55,513 bases of DNA from Erysipelotrichaceae bacterium (GTDB lineage: Bacteria > Bacillota_I > Bacilli_A > RFN20 > CAG-449): NCBI GenBank assembly GCA_015059095.1, contig SVBA01000012.1:1-55513 (forward strand). Reading direction: 5' to 3'. The notes under the pieces were generated by a model. The model was not told where the DNA came from and searched no databases. It saw only the letters and a program-made list of their open reading frames with translations. Positions within the stretch are counted from its first letter, which is position 1, and each line of letters opens with the position of its first letter. Below, one piece after another: positions 5,130-53,796 of this stretch. The translations under genes were made by a program, and so were the position numbers.

Positions 5130-5256
5130 AGTCCATAAAGAGAACGGGGAGGGACAAGCCTTATGATCCGTCGGCAACCTGGATAATATCTGATGGTGCC
5201 AAAGCTTGAATGATGGGAAAAAATAGTTAGAATGCCCATCTTCGGATGGGTTTTTT
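5130..5256 (+). ncRNA. SAM-I (S-box) riboswitch with terminator
   Basis: The core segments GAGGGAC, GTCGGCAACC and GGTGCCAA occur in S-box order. The terminator is CCCATC (5235-5240), loop TTCG, GATGGG (5245-5250) and a T6 run. GATGGG at 5212-5217 can pair either with the 5' P1 strand (5132-5136) or with the terminator's CCCATC, which gives the usual switch: high SAM frees the terminator and stops metK transcription. Confidence 0.93.
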
Positions 5257-20047: not shown

Positions 20048-22374
20048 TGAAAAGATTTGCTTTAGCAGGTAACCCAAATAGTGGTAAGACAACATTATTT
20101 AACGCTTTAACTGGATCTACTGCTCATGTTGGTAACTGGCCTGGGGTAACAGTTGATAAAAAAGAAGGTACATATAAAAAAGGTAGCGAACCTGTTTCTA
20201 TTGTAGACCTTCCAGGTATTTATTCTTTATCCCCTTATACTGATGAAGAAGTTATTTCAAGAAATTATATTTTAGATGAAAAACCTGATTGTATCATTAA
20301 TATTGTTGATGCTACTAACTTAGAAAGAAATTTATATTTAACTACTCAATTAATGGAAATTAGTGTTCCTGTAGTTGTCGCATTAAATATGATGGATATT
20401 GTTAGACATAATGGCGATACATTAAATGTTAAAGAATTAGAAAAAGAATTAGGAATTCCTGTAGTAGAAATATCTGCTTTGAAAGAAGATAATATCGATA
20501 GATTGATGAATGTTGCTATCGAAGCTTCTAATAAAAAAAGAGAAGCAAAAACAGTTATTGAATCAACTACTTTAGCTCATTTAGTTGGTGATGTAACAAT
20601 TGCATTTAAAGGAAAAAGAGTTGATAACCCATTATTCCATGCAATTAAATTTGTTGAATTAGATGAATTAGAAGTTAAAAATCATCCTGATTTAATCGAA
20701 ATGGTTGATGAATTTAAAGCAACATTTAAAGACGAATTATTTGGCACAGACTTTGAAGCAGTAATCGCAGATGCTAGATATAAATATATTACTTCTCATT
20801 ATTCTCCATGTATGACTAAACATAAAAATGAAGTTGGAGAAGATGTTAATTTAGAAAAACAAGAAAAGATTGATAGAGTTATGACTCATAAAATCTGGGG
20901 TATTCCATTATTCTTATTAATCTTATTTGCAATATTCCATTTAACTTTCTCAGAAGATTTATTATATATTGGTTCTTTAGTGAATGCTTTAGGTGGTGAA
21001 ATGACTCCATCTTTTGAAGGTTCTATGTTTGAAGGATTATTATGGAGTGATGCGGGTATTAATTCTCCAGGTGTAATCTTATTTAATTTATTAGACTGTT
21101 TAACTGGTACTTTAGGTGATTTGGCTTCACAATTAATGGTAACATTAAATGCTAGTGAATGGGCTACTGGATTAGTTGTTGATGGTATTTTAGGAGGACT
21201 ATTCGCTGTATTATCTTTCGTACCTCAAATCTTATTATTATTCTTATTCTTCTCAATTCTAGAAGATAGTGGATATATGGCTCGTGTAGCATTTATCCTT
21301 GATAGAATCTTTAGACATTTTGGTTTATCAGGAAGATCATTTATGCCTATGATTATGGGCTTTGGTTGTTCTGTTCCTGCAATGGTAAACACTAGAACAT
21401 TATCTGATGATAATGAAAAATTAGCAACTATCAGAGTTATTCCTTTCTTTAGCTGCGGTGCGAAATTACCAATTTTAACAGGTATTGCTGGTGGATTAGG
21501 GTTAGCATTTAATTTACCTCATGTTGATATAATTACATATAGTATGTACGTTTTAGGTATGGTAGTAGCGGTAGTAACAGTTATCATTATGAGAAAAACT
21601 ACAATGAGAGGTAAAGTTCCACCATTCATTATGGAATTACCTCAATACCGTATGCCTCAATTTAAATCTACAATGCTTCATTTATGGGATAAATTGAAAC
21701 ACTTTGTTCATAAAGCATTTACAATTATTTTAGCTTCTACTATTGTTATTTGGTTTTTAACTAACTTTGGTTGGAACTGGCAATACATTGGTACTGATAT
21801 GGATAATTCAATCCTTGCTTCTTTAGGTCAATTAATTCAACCATTATTTACTCCTTTAGGATTTGGATCTCAATTATCTAAATTTGGTTGGGTATTTGCA
21901 GTTGCTGCAGTTACTGGATTAATTGCAAAAGAAAATGTAATTGCTACATTCTATACTCTTGCTTGCTGTATTATCACTTACATTAGTAAAGGAGGTACAG
22001 ATATCTCTATTCCTCCAGAAATTATTGAAGCTTTAATTCAAGCTGGTGAAGCTAGTGAAGATGGATTTAATGAGGCTGCAGCAATGATTTATGCAACAGG
22101 AATTAGCGTTCCAGGAGCAATTTCATTTATCGCATTCAATATGTTAACAATTCCATGCTTTGCAGCAGTTGCTACTGCAAAAGCAGAACTAACTAAATCA
22201 AAATTTAATTGGACTTTAATATTCTGGTTAGTGACATCTTATTTAGTTGCAATGATGATTTATGTTATTGGTAACTGGTGGTGGACATTATTTATCTTCT
22301 TAGTATTAATAGCTTTAGGAGTTCTAGGAATCTATTTATTTAATAAAAAGAATCCTTTAAAAGGTAATAAATAA
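20047..22374 (+). CDS. feoB: Ferrous iron transporter B
   Basis: A 775-aa FeoB. The N-terminal G domain has G1 GNPNSGKTT, G3 DLPGIYSL and G4 NMMD; then two Gate regions with the conserved GFGCSVPAMVNTRTL and SCGAKLPIL, and a C-terminal membrane part. It moves Fe(II) across the membrane using nucleotide hydrolysis. Overlaps at both ends (feoA and the Cys-rich partner) show one operon. Full length, no defects seen. Confidence 0.97.
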   Translation: MKRFALAGNPNSGKTTLFNALTGSTAHVGNWPGVTVDKKEGTYKKGSEPVSIVDLPGIYSLSPYTDEEVISRNYILDEKPDCIINIVDATNLERNLYLTTQLMEISVPVVVALNMMDIVRHNGDTLNVKELEKELGIPVVEISALKEDNIDRLMNVAIEASNKKREAKTVIESTTLAHLVGDVTIAFKGKRVDNPLFHAIKFVELDELEVKNHPDLIEMVDEFKATFKDELFGTDFEAVIADARYKYITSHYSPCMTKHKNEVGEDVNLEKQEKIDRVMTHKIWGIPLFLLILFAIFHLTFSEDLLYIGSLVNALGGEMTPSFEGSMFEGLLWSDAGINSPGVILFNLLDCLTGTLGDLASQLMVTLNASEWATGLVVDGILGGLFAVLSFVPQILLLFLFFSILEDSGYMARVAFILDRIFRHFGLSGRSFMPMIMGFGCSVPAMVNTRTLSDDNEKLATIRVIPFFSCGAKLPILTGIAGGLGLAFNLPHVDIITYSMYVLGMVVAVVTVIIMRKTTMRGKVPPFIMELPQYRMPQFKSTMLHLWDKLKHFVHKAFTIILASTIVIWFLTNFGWNWQYIGTDMDNSILASLGQLIQPLFTPLGFGSQLSKFGWVFAVAAVTGLIAKENVIATFYTLACCIITYISKGGTDISIPPEIIEALIQAGEASEDGFNEAAAMIYATGISVPGAISFIAFNMLTIPCFAAVATAKAELTKSKFNWTLIFWLVTSYLVAMMIYVIGNWWWTLFIFLVLIALGVLGIYLFNKKNPLKGNK

Positions 22375-22565
22375 TGGAACCAATTGATATTATTATTTTA
22401 GTAGCTTCTATTATTATTGTAGCGAGTGTACTTGGAAGATATATTTATAGAAAAAGTAAAAAAATGACAACTGGTGACTGTGCTTGTTGTACATTAAAAA
22501 CTGAAAAAACATTAAAAAAAATCCGTAGAGAATTAAAAAAGTCTAAAAAATTAATCAGAGAGTAA
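22374..22565 (+). CDS. FeoB-associated Cys-rich membrane protein
   Basis: A 63-aa protein with one N-terminal membrane helix (about 4-24) and the motif GDCACCTLK (three Cys) before a Lys-rich tail. This matches the FeoB-associated Cys-rich family that replaces FeoC in many Firmicutes. The start overlaps the feoB stop by 1 nt. The cysteines may bind iron at the pore exit (inference). Confidence 0.9.
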   Translation: MEPIDIIILVASIIIVASVLGRYIYRKSKKMTTGDCACCTLKTEKTLKKIRRELKKSKKLIRE

Positions 22566-22582
22566 AATCTCTGATTTTATTT
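22553..22582 (+). terminator. Terminator of the feo operon
   Basis: A 9-bp perfect stem (22553-22561 with 22568-22576) followed by a T-rich run, overlapping the last gene's stop. Confidence 0.75.
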
Positions 22583-22601
22583 TTGATAGGGTTTTTGCGA
22601 T

Positions 22602-22655
22602 AAAACAGCGACTCTACTGTGAGTAGAGTTGAATAGTAATTTACTATTCAGTTTT
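22602..22655. other. Three-stem structured region
   Basis: A 9-bp stem (22609-22617 with 22623-22631, one G-T pair) is followed at once by an 8-bp stem (22631-22638 with 22642-22649). AAAAC (22602-22606) can close the pair with GTTTT (22651-22655), giving a three-way junction fold. It lies between the feo terminator and a new promoter. It is not a family I recognise, and transcription is not shown. Confidence 0.35.
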
Positions 22656-22660
22656 GAATA

Positions 22661-22689
22661 TTGACAAAAAGTATATTTATTTATATTAT
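22661..22689 (+). promoter_or_regulatory. Strong SigA promoter of a putative small RNA
   Basis: A perfect TTGACA (22661-22666) and TATTAT (22684-22689) with a 17-nt spacer. No coding start follows within 200 nt; two terminator-like hairpins do. Confidence 0.6.
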
Positions 22690-22695
22690 GCGAGT

Positions 22696-22800
22696 GAGTA
22701 AACTTAGTTGTTTACTCTTTTTTTGTGCGAACAAAAAAACTCGCTCTATAAGTAATCAGGTTGCAAGGGTTCGATATTACTTATAGAGCATTTTTTATTT
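22696..22800 (+). ncRNA. Putative small RNA with two terminator hairpins
   Basis: Downstream of the promoter there is an 8-bp hairpin (22696-22703 with 22710-22717) plus T7, then a 14-bp perfect stem (22743-22756 with 22776-22789) with a 19-nt loop and a T-rich tail. GCGAGT at 22690-22695 could alternatively pair with ACTCGC at 22739-22744. The second hairpin and its loop (22752-22775) resemble the 3' part of the tRNA-Thr at 52313-52337. The remaining gap to 22914 holds only a 5-bp hairpin (22845-22859) and the next gene's ribosome binding site. No known family was recognised. Confidence 0.4.
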
Positions 22801-22914
22801 TTATTGATCTGATTTTTTGTTAATATTATATTATCTAAAAATATGCAACTACCTGTTGCGTGACTATGTAATGTTTATAGCATACAATATAAGTGAGGAA
22901 AGGAAGTGAAATAA

Positions 22915-23391
22915 ATGATTGATTTTGTTAAAGTCGGATCGAGAATCGCTAATTTAAGAAAACAAAGTAAATTGTCTCAAGAAGAACTAGCAGAACGATT
23001 ATTTATTACTAGACAAGCTTTGTCAAAGTGGGAAAATGGCACTTCTATTCCATCTATTGACTCTTTACTTGAGATTAGTAAAATCTTTAATACTTCGTTT
23101 GAATATCTTTTATGTTTGGGTGAGGAAGGAAGTTTAGATATTGATCCAGATGATATCTTTAATGGACACGAAAGAAACTTTGTTATTCAAAATATCATAC
23201 AAGGAAAAATTAAAGTAGATATTCCTAATGTTATTTATCAAATGTCTCCTACAGAAAGACTAACGATATTGAAGGGGATTAAAGAAAAGAAAATTGAATG
23301 TAATTATGAAGAGTTAGTAGTTAAACTTACAGAATCAGAGAAAAAATATTTATTTGGAGGTGCATATTATGTGGTTCAAAAAAGAAAATAA
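22915..23391 (+). CDS. XRE-family transcriptional regulator
   Basis: A 158-aa protein: an N-terminal HTH of the Cro/C1 type (about 7-62; LRKQSKLSQEELAERLFITRQALSKWENG), then a C-terminal region with QMSPTERLTILKGIKEKKIEC and LTESEKKYLFGG that may bind a partner. GGAAAGGAAGTG precedes the ATG. It overlaps the next gene by 23 nt, so the two are coupled. Its targets are unknown. Confidence 0.88.
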   Translation: MIDFVKVGSRIANLRKQSKLSQEELAERLFITRQALSKWENGTSIPSIDSLLEISKIFNTSFEYLLCLGEEGSLDIDPDDIFNGHERNFVIQNIIQGKIKVDIPNVIYQMSPTERLTILKGIKEKKIECNYEELVVKLTESEKKYLFGGAYYVVQKRK

Positions 23392-30231: not shown

Positions 30232-31263
30232 ATGATAAGTTTTGATTTAGAATTATTTAAGAAAATATCAAAGGATATTTTCACTTGTGATTCTCCAACG
30301 GGATTCACACATAATGTTATTGGTATAATTGAAAATTATATTAAAGAATACGGTTATAATTATCGCATTTTAAATAATGGGGCATTAGAAGTTTCTATTA
30401 AAGGTAAAGATTCTTCTAAAGTTGTTGCAACTTCTGCTCATGTTGATACACTAGGATTAATGGTAAGATCAATTAAAGGTAATGGTAATTTAGCTTTAAC
30501 TAAATTAGGAGGACCAATTACTGCAACTTTAGATGCTGAATATTGTAAGGTATATACTAGAGATGGAAGAATTTATAACGGAACAATAATTTCTACTTCT
30601 CCAGCAGTTCATGTATATAAAGATGCGAATAGTAAATCAAGAGATATTGATAATTTAGAAGTAAGACTTGATGAAGTGGTTAAAAATGCTCAAGATGTTA
30701 AAAATTTAGGTATTCAAAATGGAGATATTGTTTGTTATGATCCTAAATTTACTATTACTGAATCTGGATTCTTAAAAACGAGATTTATTGATGATAAAGC
30801 AAGTGCAGTTATTCTATTAATGTTATTAAAATATTGTTCAGAGAATAAACTTGAATTTAAACATGATACTAAAATTTATTTTGTAGTTTATGAAGAAGTT
30901 GGACATGGGGCTTCAAGTATTGATAAATCAATCGATGAATTTGTTACATTAGATATGGGTTGTGTTGGACTTGATTTAGCAGGTAATGAATTTGCAGTTT
31001 CTATATGTGCAAAAGACTCAGGGGGTCCTTATGATTATGAATTAACTACTAGACTAATTAATTTAGCTAAAGATAATAATTTAGATTATACAGTTGATAT
31101 CTTCCCATTCTATGGATCAGATGTCGGAGCAGCATTAAGCGCAGGCGTTGATTCTAAAGGTGCACTAATTGGAACTGGTGTAGCAGCATCACATGGTATG
31201 GAAAGAACACATATTAAAGGTATTGAAAATACATTAAAATTAATTTATTTATACTTACTATAG
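30232..31263 (+). CDS. M42-family metallo-aminopeptidase
   Basis: A 343-aa peptidase. The metal and catalytic residues lie in TSAHVDTLGLMVR, FIDDKASAV, EEVGHGAS, DMGC and the late SHGMERTHIKG. M42 enzymes (PepA, glutamyl aminopeptidase, cellulase M-like) trim peptides in the cytoplasm as large tetrahedral complexes. AGGAGG precedes the ATG. A short palindrome (30205-30216) lies in the 23-nt gap after the EEP gene; the two may be co-transcribed. Confidence 0.92.
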   Translation: MISFDLELFKKISKDIFTCDSPTGFTHNVIGIIENYIKEYGYNYRILNNGALEVSIKGKDSSKVVATSAHVDTLGLMVRSIKGNGNLALTKLGGPITATLDAEYCKVYTRDGRIYNGTIISTSPAVHVYKDANSKSRDIDNLEVRLDEVVKNAQDVKNLGIQNGDIVCYDPKFTITESGFLKTRFIDDKASAVILLMLLKYCSENKLEFKHDTKIYFVVYEEVGHGASSIDKSIDEFVTLDMGCVGLDLAGNEFAVSICAKDSGGPYDYELTTRLINLAKDNNLDYTVDIFPFYGSDVGAALSAGVDSKGALIGTGVAASHGMERTHIKGIENTLKLIYLYLL

Positions 31264-31297
31264 AAAAAAGGCCGTTAGTTTATCTAACAGCCTTTTT
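31264..31297. terminator. Terminator, convergent genes
   Basis: GTTAG/CTAAC plus GGC/GCC with one mismatch (31270-31278 with 31284-31292), flanked by A6 and T5. Confidence 0.75.
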
Positions 31298-31306
31298 ATA
31301 TAGTCA

Positions 31307-48349: not shown

Positions 48350-49576
48350 ATGAAAAAATCAGTATTAAAAAAGTATGCAAAATTAATTGCAACATGTGGT
48401 GTTAATGTTCAAAAAGGACAAGAAGTAATCGTTAATGCTGCAGTAGATCAAGTTCCACTTGTTAAAGAAGTTGTAGAAGCTTGTTATAAAAGAGGAGCAA
48501 AACGTGTAACAGTTGAATGGGGATGTAGTGAAGTAACTAAAGTTGGTTACAAATATATGTCAGTTGAAACTATGTCTGAAATTCCACAATGGCAAATCGA
48601 AAAAATGAAACGTAGAGTGGAAGTCATTCCTGCTAGAATTCATATTGCTTCAGGTGCTCCAGATGCAATGAAGGGTGTTGATCAAAAGAAATTAGCACAA
48701 GTTAGTATGAAAACTTATCCTATTATGAAGCCATATATTGATCAAATTGATAATAAAGATCAATGGTGTATTGCTGGAGCTGCTTCTCCAGAATGGGCTA
48801 AAAAAGTATTCCCTGATTTACCTAAAAAACAAGCTGTTGAAAAATTATGGGAAGCAATCCTATATACTTCAAGAATTTGGGATGATCCAGTAGCAGAATG
48901 GAAAAAACACAATAAAGATTTAAGAGAAAAATGTGAAAGATTAAATAACTTAGGTTTAGTTGAATTAAGATATAAATCAAGCAATGGTACAGATTTTAAA
49001 GTTGGTTTATTACCAAATGCAAATTTCTTAGGAGGTTCAGAATTTGCTTTAGGTTCAGGTATTGAATTTAATCCTAATGTTCCATCTGAAGAATGCTTCA
49101 CTTCTCCAAGAAAAGGTGCTGCAGAAGGTTTAGTAGTAGCAACAAAACCATTATCATATCAAGGTGAATTAATTGAAAACTTCTCAATTAGATTTGAAAA
49201 TGGTAAAGCTGTAGAAGTTCATGCTGAAAAAGGTGAAGAATTATTAAAACAAATGATTTCAATGGATGAAAATGCTGGTTACTTAGGTGAAGTAGCATTA
49301 ATTCCATATGATTCACCAATTAATAACACAGGTATTTTATTCTATAATACTTTATATGATGAAAATGCTTCGTGTCATTTAGCATTAGGTAGAGGATTCA
49401 CTAACTGTATTAGAAACTATGATCAATATTCTCAAAAAGAATTACAAGAAATGGGTATCAACTCATCTATGATCCATGTTGACTTTATGATCGGTAGTGA
49501 AGATATGGATATCGTTGGTGTTAAAGAAGATGGTACAACAGTACAAATCTTTAAAAACGGTAACTGGGCATTCTAA
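48350..49576 (+). CDS. M29-family aminopeptidase
   Basis: A 408-aa metallo-aminopeptidase of the AmpS/PepS (thermophilic M29) family. EECFTSPRKGAAEG, ENFSIRFENGKAVE, LGEVALIPYDSPI, FYNTLYDENASCHLALG and HVDFMIGSEDMDIVG hold the metal-binding Glu, His and Asp residues. It frees N-terminal residues from peptides in the cytoplasm. GGAG precedes the ATG; a TATAAT is 19 nt before the start, and an inverted repeat lies further up. Confidence 0.93.
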   Translation: MKKSVLKKYAKLIATCGVNVQKGQEVIVNAAVDQVPLVKEVVEACYKRGAKRVTVEWGCSEVTKVGYKYMSVETMSEIPQWQIEKMKRRVEVIPARIHIASGAPDAMKGVDQKKLAQVSMKTYPIMKPYIDQIDNKDQWCIAGAASPEWAKKVFPDLPKKQAVEKLWEAILYTSRIWDDPVAEWKKHNKDLREKCERLNNLGLVELRYKSSNGTDFKVGLLPNANFLGGSEFALGSGIEFNPNVPSEECFTSPRKGAAEGLVVATKPLSYQGELIENFSIRFENGKAVEVHAEKGEELLKQMISMDENAGYLGEVALIPYDSPINNTGILFYNTLYDENASCHLALGRGFTNCIRNYDQYSQKELQEMGINSSMIHVDFMIGSEDMDIVGVKEDGTTVQIFKNGNWAF

Positions 49577-49582
49577 TATCAA

Positions 49583-49610
49583 TAAAAGGGTTGGAATTCC
49601 AACCCTTTTA
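49583..49610. terminator. Bidirectional terminator
   Basis: A 12-bp perfect stem (49583-49594 with 49599-49610) between convergent genes. Confidence 0.85.
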
Positions 49611-49616
49611 TACTGC

Positions 49617-50408
49617 TTAAATTATACCTGCATACTTAAATGCATTATATATTCCATCATCGTCGATATCAGTTGTGATATAATCGGCGACTTTTTTACA
49701 TTTATCTATCGCATTTCCCATAGCGATACCAAGTCCTGCATATTCAATCATTTCTGCATCATTATGACCATCGCCAATAGCAATCACTTCTTCTTTTTTG
49801 ATTCCTAAATAATTAATTAAGGCTTCTATTCCTTTAGCTTTATTATAGTTTAAAGGAATCACATCAAATCCGTATTCATTGAATCCAGAATAAAAAGCAT
49901 ATTTACTAGATTCTTTAAATAATGATTCGTATCTTTCTTTTTCATATTTATCCCAAAAGAGGTTAATCATATAACAATCTTCGTTGTTGTATTGTTTTTT
50001 ATTAGGTGTTTTAATAGAAATACTTCCATAACCTTCTTCTATAAGTTTTACATTGTCATTAAGTCTAAAAACATCATTTAAAGTTACAAATGTCATATTT
50101 AAATTGTTTTTATTAGTTACTTCAATTAAATTATTAACACATCTAGGATCGATAGGATAGGAATGGATAATATTTAAGTTTTTATCATGTACAAGAGTAC
50201 CGTTACATACATTAAAATAATCGAAACTAACTTGATCTAATATTCCGGTTTGTTTACTTAAAAAGGTACTTCTACCTGTTGCTAAACAAATAATAATTCC
50301 ATTTTCTTTAGCTTTATTTATTGCTTCAATACAAGAAGAGGGAATTGATTTGGTTTTATGAGAGAAGATAGTCCCATCGACATCTAAAAATACAATTTTA
50401 TATTTCAT
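49617..50408 (-). CDS. Cof-type HAD phosphatase
   Basis: A 263-aa HAD hydrolase: the nucleophile motif FLDVDGTIFSHKTK, motif II CLATGRS, Lys in YNKAKGIEAL and motif IV GDGHNDAEMIEYAGLGIAMGNA. The C2 cap between them is the Cof type acting on sugar phosphates or nucleotides. GGAGGG precedes the ATG. The substrate cannot be told. Confidence 0.92.
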   Translation of the reverse strand: MKYKIVFLDVDGTIFSHKTKSIPSSCIEAINKAKENGIIICLATGRSTFLSKQTGILDQVSFDYFNVCNGTLVHDKNLNIIHSYPIDPRCVNNLIEVTNKNNLNMTFVTLNDVFRLNDNVKLIEEGYGSISIKTPNKKQYNNEDCYMINLFWDKYEKERYESLFKESSKYAFYSGFNEYGFDVIPLNYNKAKGIEALINYLGIKKEEVIAIGDGHNDAEMIEYAGLGIAMGNAIDKCKKVADYITTDIDDDGIYNAFKYAGII

Positions 50409-52638: not shown

Positions 52639-52644
52639 TAAAAG

Positions 52645-52909
52645 CATAAACGAGGAAATGAAATAGTATTCTAATTATATTTTCTAGCGAGTTGTGGTTG
52701 GTGGAAGCACAATAAAGATGAATCAGAAGAACGCGTCATGGAGTTAGTGTGATGAATTCATAGTTGCACTCAGGTTCGCCTGTTATAGCGATAAAGTATG
52801 ATAGTACTTAAAAAGGTTATTATCGTGAGGTAATAATAAACTAAGGTGGCACCACGTATATTATTTTTGAATATTCGTCCTTAGGCTTTAACGGCCTAAG
52901 GATTTTTTT
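52645..52909 (+). ncRNA. T-box leader, probably arginine-specific
   Basis: The T-box sequence AAGGTGGCACCACG is at 52843-52856. Stem I has AGCGAG and GGTGGAAGC in the distal part. The specifier loop is flanked by ATGA/TCAT (52658-52661 with 52736-52739) and TTCT/AGAA (52669-52672 with 52725-52728); AGTA faces GAA, then CGC (52732-52734). CGC means Arg. TGGC fits a tRNA with discriminator G. The terminator is at 52878-52909. Uncharged tRNA-Arg would switch on the importer. Confidence 0.88.
52878..52909 (+). terminator. T-box-controlled terminator
   Basis: A 9-bp perfect stem (52878-52886 with 52894-52902) and a T7 run, the attenuator of the T-box leader. Confidence 0.9.
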
Positions 52910-52971: not shown

Positions 52972-53796
52972 ATGAAACTAAACAAATTATTATTAGCTAC
53001 TTTATTAGTAGGAAGTGTACTAAGTACATCGAGTTGTGGAGGTAACACATTAGTTGTTTACACAGAATCAGGGTTTGCACCATTTGAATATGTTAAGAAT
53101 GGAAAAATTGTTGGTGTTGACGTTGATATTATGAACAAAGTAGGAGAAAAATTAGGAAAGAAAGTTGTATTTGAAAATGTATCATTTGATACTATAGTTG
53201 ACACTGTTTCTGAAGGAAAATTGACAAATGTTGGAGCAGCAGGTTTATCAATTACCGAAGAAAGATTAGAAAAAGTAGATTTTTCAATTCCTTATTACAA
53301 GGCAAATTTATATGTAATATTTAATGTTGATAATGTAAATAATGAATTTGCTCATACAATGACTGATGGAAATATTGGTGTCTATTGGTCTAGTTTAACT
53401 ACAACTAAAGGAATTGGTATTCAAACTGGTACAACTGCAGATTTATTCTTAGGAGATGAAATAGCTGAAGGTGGTTCTTTAGAAGGAATTAAAAAATCTG
53501 ATTATGATTTCTTAGATACTGCAGTAGCAGATATTGGTTTAAATATTGATTATGTAATAATTGATGAATTACCTGCTAAAAAATTAGTAGAAGGAAAAGA
53601 AAAATTAGATTGTTTGCCTTTATATTATAAAGGTGAACAAGATGAAATCGCATTTGATGAATATGCTATTGCGGTTACTAAAGGACAAGATGAATTATTA
53701 AATGCGATAAATGATGTATTAAATGAATTATTAAAAAAAGATAATGAAGGTATTACAGGTATTCAAAAAATGGTGAATGAACACCTAGGTATCTAG
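52972..53796 (+). CDS. Polar amino-acid ABC importer, substrate-binding lipoprotein
   Basis: A 274-aa SBP_bac_3 protein: a signal with a lipid-modified Cys in STSSC (residue 22), then the core FAPFEYVKNGKIVGVDVDIMNKV and SITEERLEKVDFSIPYY that binds the amino acid. Gene order and the Arg-type T-box suggest arginine or another basic amino acid. AGGAGG precedes the ATG; the permease gene starts 11 nt after the stop. Confidence 0.92.
   Translation: MKLNKLLLATLLVGSVLSTSSCGGNTLVVYTESGFAPFEYVKNGKIVGVDVDIMNKVGEKLGKKVVFENVSFDTIVDTVSEGKLTNVGAAGLSITEERLEKVDFSIPYYKANLYVIFNVDNVNNEFAHTMTDGNIGVYWSSLTTTKGIGIQTGTTADLFLGDEIAEGGSLEGIKKSDYDFLDTAVADIGLNIDYVIIDELPAKKLVEGKEKLDCLPLYYKGEQDEIAFDEYAIAVTKGQDELLNAINDVLNELLKKDNEGITGIQKMVNEHLGI

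Follow-up and report, generated by a model that had tools for sequence, protein, structure and literature searches.

An operator-like dyad of the XRE-TM/degV locus precedes a candidate small RNA unit in a hairpin cluster between a feo operon and an XRE gene

What is the cluster of four strong hairpins that lies, with a promoter of its own, between the feo operon and an XRE-family gene of an Erysipelotrichaceae bacterium? The locus belongs to a stretch of 55,513 nucleotides, called here the window and taken at its full length. A sequence-only reading had proposed a small RNA or attenuator of no recognised family, possibly acting on one of the two neighbours. All the hairpins and the promoter that it named do exist and can be read directly in the sequence, at the coordinates it gave. 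The cluster is nevertheless more than one object, as a DNA operator comes first and a candidate RNA unit follows. XRE-TM denotes here a conserved, membrane-anchored XRE protein whose C-terminal part is hydrophobic. The features of the region are the following.

22553..22576, + strand: intrinsic terminator (9-bp stem, T-rich tail) that overlaps with the stop codon of the final feo-operon gene, whose ORF ends at 22565.
22592..22632, + strand: 41-bp interspersed block enclosing the operator dyad, from BLAST of the own genome.
22611..22629, no strand: putative operator dyad of the DegV-linked XRE-TM regulator, ACTCTACT-GTG-AGTAGAGT, from copies in the genome, family conservation and order-wide degV/XRE-TM association.
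22630..22650, no strand: perfect 21-bp palindrome TGAATAGTAATTTACTATTCA between operator and promoter, considered as a possible second operator after a repeat search.
22661..22689, + strand: promoter TTGACA-17-TATTAT, 11/12 consensus match.
22696..22797, + strand: candidate small RNA of ~100 nt, three hairpins then a U-tract, from folding z and scan; no homologue found.
22743..22797, + strand: terminator hairpin of 14 bp with a 19-nt loop, CAGGTTGCAAGGGTTCGAT, and a U-tract, potentially bidirectional by its A/T flanks.
22844..22862, no strand: separate dyad GCAAC-TACCT-GTTGCGTGA, belonging to the XRE gene that follows and lying outside the hairpin cluster, from genus conservation.
22915..23391, + strand: XRE-family (HTH_3) gene that opens a conserved pair (Pfam PF01381, E 1.7e-17; genus homologues).

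Folding was strong over the cluster as a whole and in its downstream part. Against dinucleotide shuffles, the whole of 22590-22810 reaches z = -5.7; folded alone, 22696-22800 gives z = -6.7, none of 200 shuffles being equally good. When the + strand of the 55.5-kb window was scanned in 105-nt windows with a step of 25, the most extreme z was that of the segment at 22696 (-7.75, 24 shuffles), and the second most extreme that of segment 22551, which spans the feo terminator and the first palindrome. At the upstream end of the cluster, AAAAC (22602-22606) pairs with GTTTT (22651-22655) and encloses two perfect palindromes, 22611-22629 and 22630-22650. The helix and the palindromes of the three-way-junction-like fold proposed for 22602-22655 are thus present, but a DNA operator explains this segment better than an RNA fold. 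The statement that no coding frame fits also stands: the ATG (22688) of a 32-codon frame that crosses the hairpins coincides in part with the -10 box, and the frame lacks a Shine-Dalgarno.

The first palindrome recurs. When the region was compared by BLAST with its own genome, only the block 22592-22632 recurred convincingly, at 5 other places, with ~88-90% identity (E 3e-8 to 7e-7). The dyad centre, ACTCTACTGTGAGTAGAGT, occurs ~10 times in the same genome at 3 mismatches or fewer, against 0 for the reversed control. Elsewhere in the genus and family, copies of the dyad stand just upstream of XRE-TM genes, often divergent from degV. With XRE-TM used as the query in the family, 15 orthologues were read, of which 14 have the dyad ahead of the -35 box, at a distance of mostly 11-15 bp, 2-3 bp in a few cases and 26 bp in one. 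Among these conserved promoter-proximal copies the 3-bp centre of the dyad is variable, and a half-site, AGTAGAAT, seen at many loci, typically lies 20-21 bp further upstream at the family XRE-TM dyads. In the window, 22611-22629 is an exact match to the dyad pattern ACTCTACT-n3-AGTAGARt. It lies 31 bp upstream of TTGACA at 22661, i.e. within a few helical turns of the promoter, a gap wider than the 2-26 bp of XRE-TM promoters; the extra half-site 20-21 bp upstream is absent here (22590-22600), and at most other copies of the own genome. The neighbouring palindrome 22630-22650 was rejected as a repeated operator, being unique in the genome with near-matches no commoner than in the reversed control.

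The genome's own XRE-TM gene is found at C32:22176-22766, adjoining degV; DegV identity was confirmed by Pfam (PF02645). A blind search of the order with ACTCTACTnnnAGTAGART, one mismatch being allowed, was carried out in 279 genomes, and 24 newly fetched loci (L135-L158, ~3 kb each) were read. DegV and/or XRE-TM was present beside the site in 20 of these 24 loci (14/18 outside the family). Among 85,000 genomes, an exact 21-mer was found at 8 loci, nearly all in Clostridia-type MAGs, with one record titled Corallococcus, and degV or an XRE gene adjoined the site in 6 of them. Pfam verified DegV at three of the exact 21-mer loci and at two of the order loci. The promoter-proximal conservation in the family and the order-wide association with degV and XRE-TM argue, from sequence comparison, for the dyad as an operator-like element of the XRE-TM/degV locus; we hold this assignment with high confidence. 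Its position upstream of the promoter fits an activator, without proving one. The linkage of operator, regulator and degV is widespread and could bear on lipid-dependent control; no description of an XRE-TM/degV operator was found in the literature searched.

Some observations were made at other copies of the operator. On contigs C5, C11 and C31 of the own genome (L040, L045, L046, L050), duplicated XRE genes with hydrophobic C-termini each stand under this operator. TATAAT is present in their promoters and a -35 box is missing, while AGT-n2-CTACC is conserved 19 nt upstream, which suggests that they depend on an activator. In many XRE-TM orthologues (L076, L078, L085 and similar loci) the -10 box and the start codon are just a few bases apart, and the mRNA of these genes appears, as far as can be read from sequence, to be leaderless. 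At L048:1501-1720, another operator copy is followed by TATAAT and a short stretch that ends in a terminator-like hairpin, after which comes an M16 peptidase gene. This may be a second short RNA or leader under operator control.

We now turn to the unit downstream of the operator. The promoter announced by the earlier reading is there: TTGACA (22661-22666), a 17 nt spacer and TATTAT (22684-22689) are near-consensus. Promoter look-alikes are common in AT-rich DNA, yet a match of 11/12 is rare, only 7 sites of the window reaching at least this score on both strands. Transcription would be expected to start at ~22695-22697. The hairpin with T7 and the 14-bp hairpin with a T-tail exist as well. 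The first, GAGTAAAC-TTAGTT-GTTTACTC, occupies 22696-22717; the other, at 22743-22789, has its arms at 22743-22756 and 22776-22789, and ATTTTTTATTTTT follows. An additional hairpin, TTTTTTTGT-GCGA-ACAAAAAAA, is found between them, at 22718-22739. The candidate RNA would begin at its first hairpin, near the expected +1, which is unusual. Sequence prediction thus gives what a small RNA gene should have, that is a promoter of its own, an intrinsic terminator (~22797) and a structure stabler than chance, and compared with shuffled sequences the unit is folded far beyond chance. A ~100-nt non-coding RNA, putatively under operator control, is the best reading of the promoter and the three hairpins; that it is a functional small RNA we rate at about even. 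The proposal of a small RNA of no known family therefore holds for 22696-22800, which has no Rfam match, but not for 22602-22655, which is better explained as a DNA operator.

Relatives of the candidate RNA were sought by several means. Rfam gave nothing at gathering threshold for the hairpin region. BLAST against the own genome, 58 relatives, phages and plasmids returned no RNA homologue, the 41-bp operator block being the only recurring part, and the central hairpin was not found in viral contigs. A covariance model built from relatives had been proposed as a check; built from the single sequence, it recovered no convincing homologue in 18 genomes of the family and 279 of the order. The two best non-self matches in the order are weak and unrelated: one is a terminator that follows a 4-alpha-glucanotransferase-like gene, the other is coding sequence. 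The strongly folded, terminated stretch, probably a small RNA, is species-specific so far. A tRNA-like loop sequence was followed up and dropped, as it corresponds to no tRNA and has no second copy in the genome. Pairing of the loop to gene starts in the window was also discarded: the best partner was the 63-aa feo-operon gene (-13.8 kcal/mol), and 23% of shuffled loops did equally well.

We explain 22590-22800 as a stand-alone transcription unit in which an XRE-TM operator would control a short terminated non-coding RNA, an explanation that we believe slightly more than we doubt it. XRE-TM, encoded elsewhere in the genome beside degV, would recognise and bind the dyad 22611-22629, and the dyad would control, by activation or by repression, the near-consensus promoter 22661-22689. 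We infer that this promoter yields a ~100-nt non-coding RNA made of three hairpins, ending at the intrinsic terminator ~22797, and that the RNA acts in trans. A DNA operator is in this way told apart from a candidate RNA that is alike by eye, and the candidate RNA is given a likely regulator.

Could the element instead act on its neighbours in cis? The feo operon, made of feoA, feoB and a 63-aa membrane ORF, is closed by a terminator of its own at 22553-22576, before the element begins. A dyad GCAAC-n5-GTTGCGTGA lies directly upstream of the XRE gene, in the same place in 8/8 genus orthologues/paralogue, and is probably the autoregulatory operator of that gene. Where the feo 3' flank of relatives was read, the XRE gene was not behind feo. 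Since feo has its own terminator and the XRE gene its own operator, and since the feo-XRE order is unconserved, neither neighbour is likely to be a cis-target, and the suggested attenuation of feo or of the XRE pair is unlikely. The element might still be read as the 5' leader of the XRE gene, with transcription from 22661 either stopping at 22797 or continuing into 22915. Promoter, terminator and XRE gene do follow each other on the same strand, and an alternative pairing of GCGAGT with ACTCGC, put forward earlier as a competing structure, is conceivable. Both arms exist in the sequence (22690-22695 and 22739-22744), but the GCGAGT arm comes after the -10 box and before the expected start, outside an RNA starting at ~22696, and the proposed switch would therefore be mostly or wholly untranscribed. 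Even with GCGAGT included, the alternative pairing adds only ~1.6-1.8 kcal/mol, and the idea of a competing pairing is weak. Moreover, the genus homologues keep their own operator beside the gene, a hairpin leader is absent in all 7 of them besides the window's own, and the window's XRE gene has a promoter-like site of its own at 22860-22888. We consider a leader of the XRE gene improbable.

The hairpins may also have no function as an RNA: the dyad would be an operator copied by duplication, and the hairpins tandem, possibly bidirectional terminators or stem debris insulating feo from the XRE pair. This would agree with the fact that 22640-22800 is conserved nowhere searched, and with a juxtaposition of feo and XRE seen in no relative examined; with A7 and T7 tracts on their flanks, the stems could terminate transcription on both strands. 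However, feo is already terminated before the element, insulation in both directions is unneeded because the genes adjoining the element are all on the same strand, and a near-consensus promoter directly precedes the hairpins. We therefore judge such an origin rather unlikely, though worth keeping in mind. That all four hairpins form one structured non-coding RNA, made by read-through from feo, would account for the good folding of the whole of 22590-22810 and for the closing AAAAC/GTTTT helix. A terminator precedes the first dyad, however, and that dyad is conserved, with its variable 3-bp centre, upstream of -35 boxes, where it would not be transcribed with the XRE-TM gene; we give very little credit to a single RNA.

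The preferred explanation, an operator-controlled short RNA, has parallels in known systems. As in Cro/CI-type (XRE, HTH_3) autoregulation, a short inverted repeat lies near the regulator's own promoter and is repeated at other promoters. Unlike these systems, the XRE-TM regulator has a C-terminal hydrophobic region and a linkage to degV, and its operator precedes the -35 box, frequently accompanied by additional half-sites 20-21 bp farther upstream. The candidate RNA resembles intergenic trans-acting sRNAs of Gram-positive bacteria by its own promoter, its compact hairpins, its size of ~100 nt and its Rho-independent end, and by having no ORF that bears a ribosome-binding site; it differs from them in having no homologue or Rfam family and in being known here from sequence alone. 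The degV gene beside XRE-TM recalls FakB/DegV fatty-acid-binding loci, as its product belongs to the DegV family and matches the FakB1 model below threshold, whereas here it is linked to an XRE-TM regulator and lipid signalling is putative. More tentatively, and as a reading less likely than not, we propose that in Bacilli and Clostridia alike a membrane-anchored XRE regulator, paired with a DegV/FakB-type lipid-binding protein, governs a regulon through a single conserved operator. In this species the regulon would have expanded to ~10 sites and would have recruited a structured small RNA beside an iron-uptake operon.

Finally, a few features of the window lie outside this argument. The 63-aa membrane ORF behind feoB (22374-22565) carries a CACC motif, belongs to no Pfam family and is conserved in 15 of 18 family genomes. 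Further strongly folded stretches (z below -5) without Rfam match are found at 49526-49680, 53551-53655 and 31201-31305. A SAM riboswitch and a T-box leader, at 5130-5219 and 52644-52885 respectively, score above the Rfam gathering thresholds.
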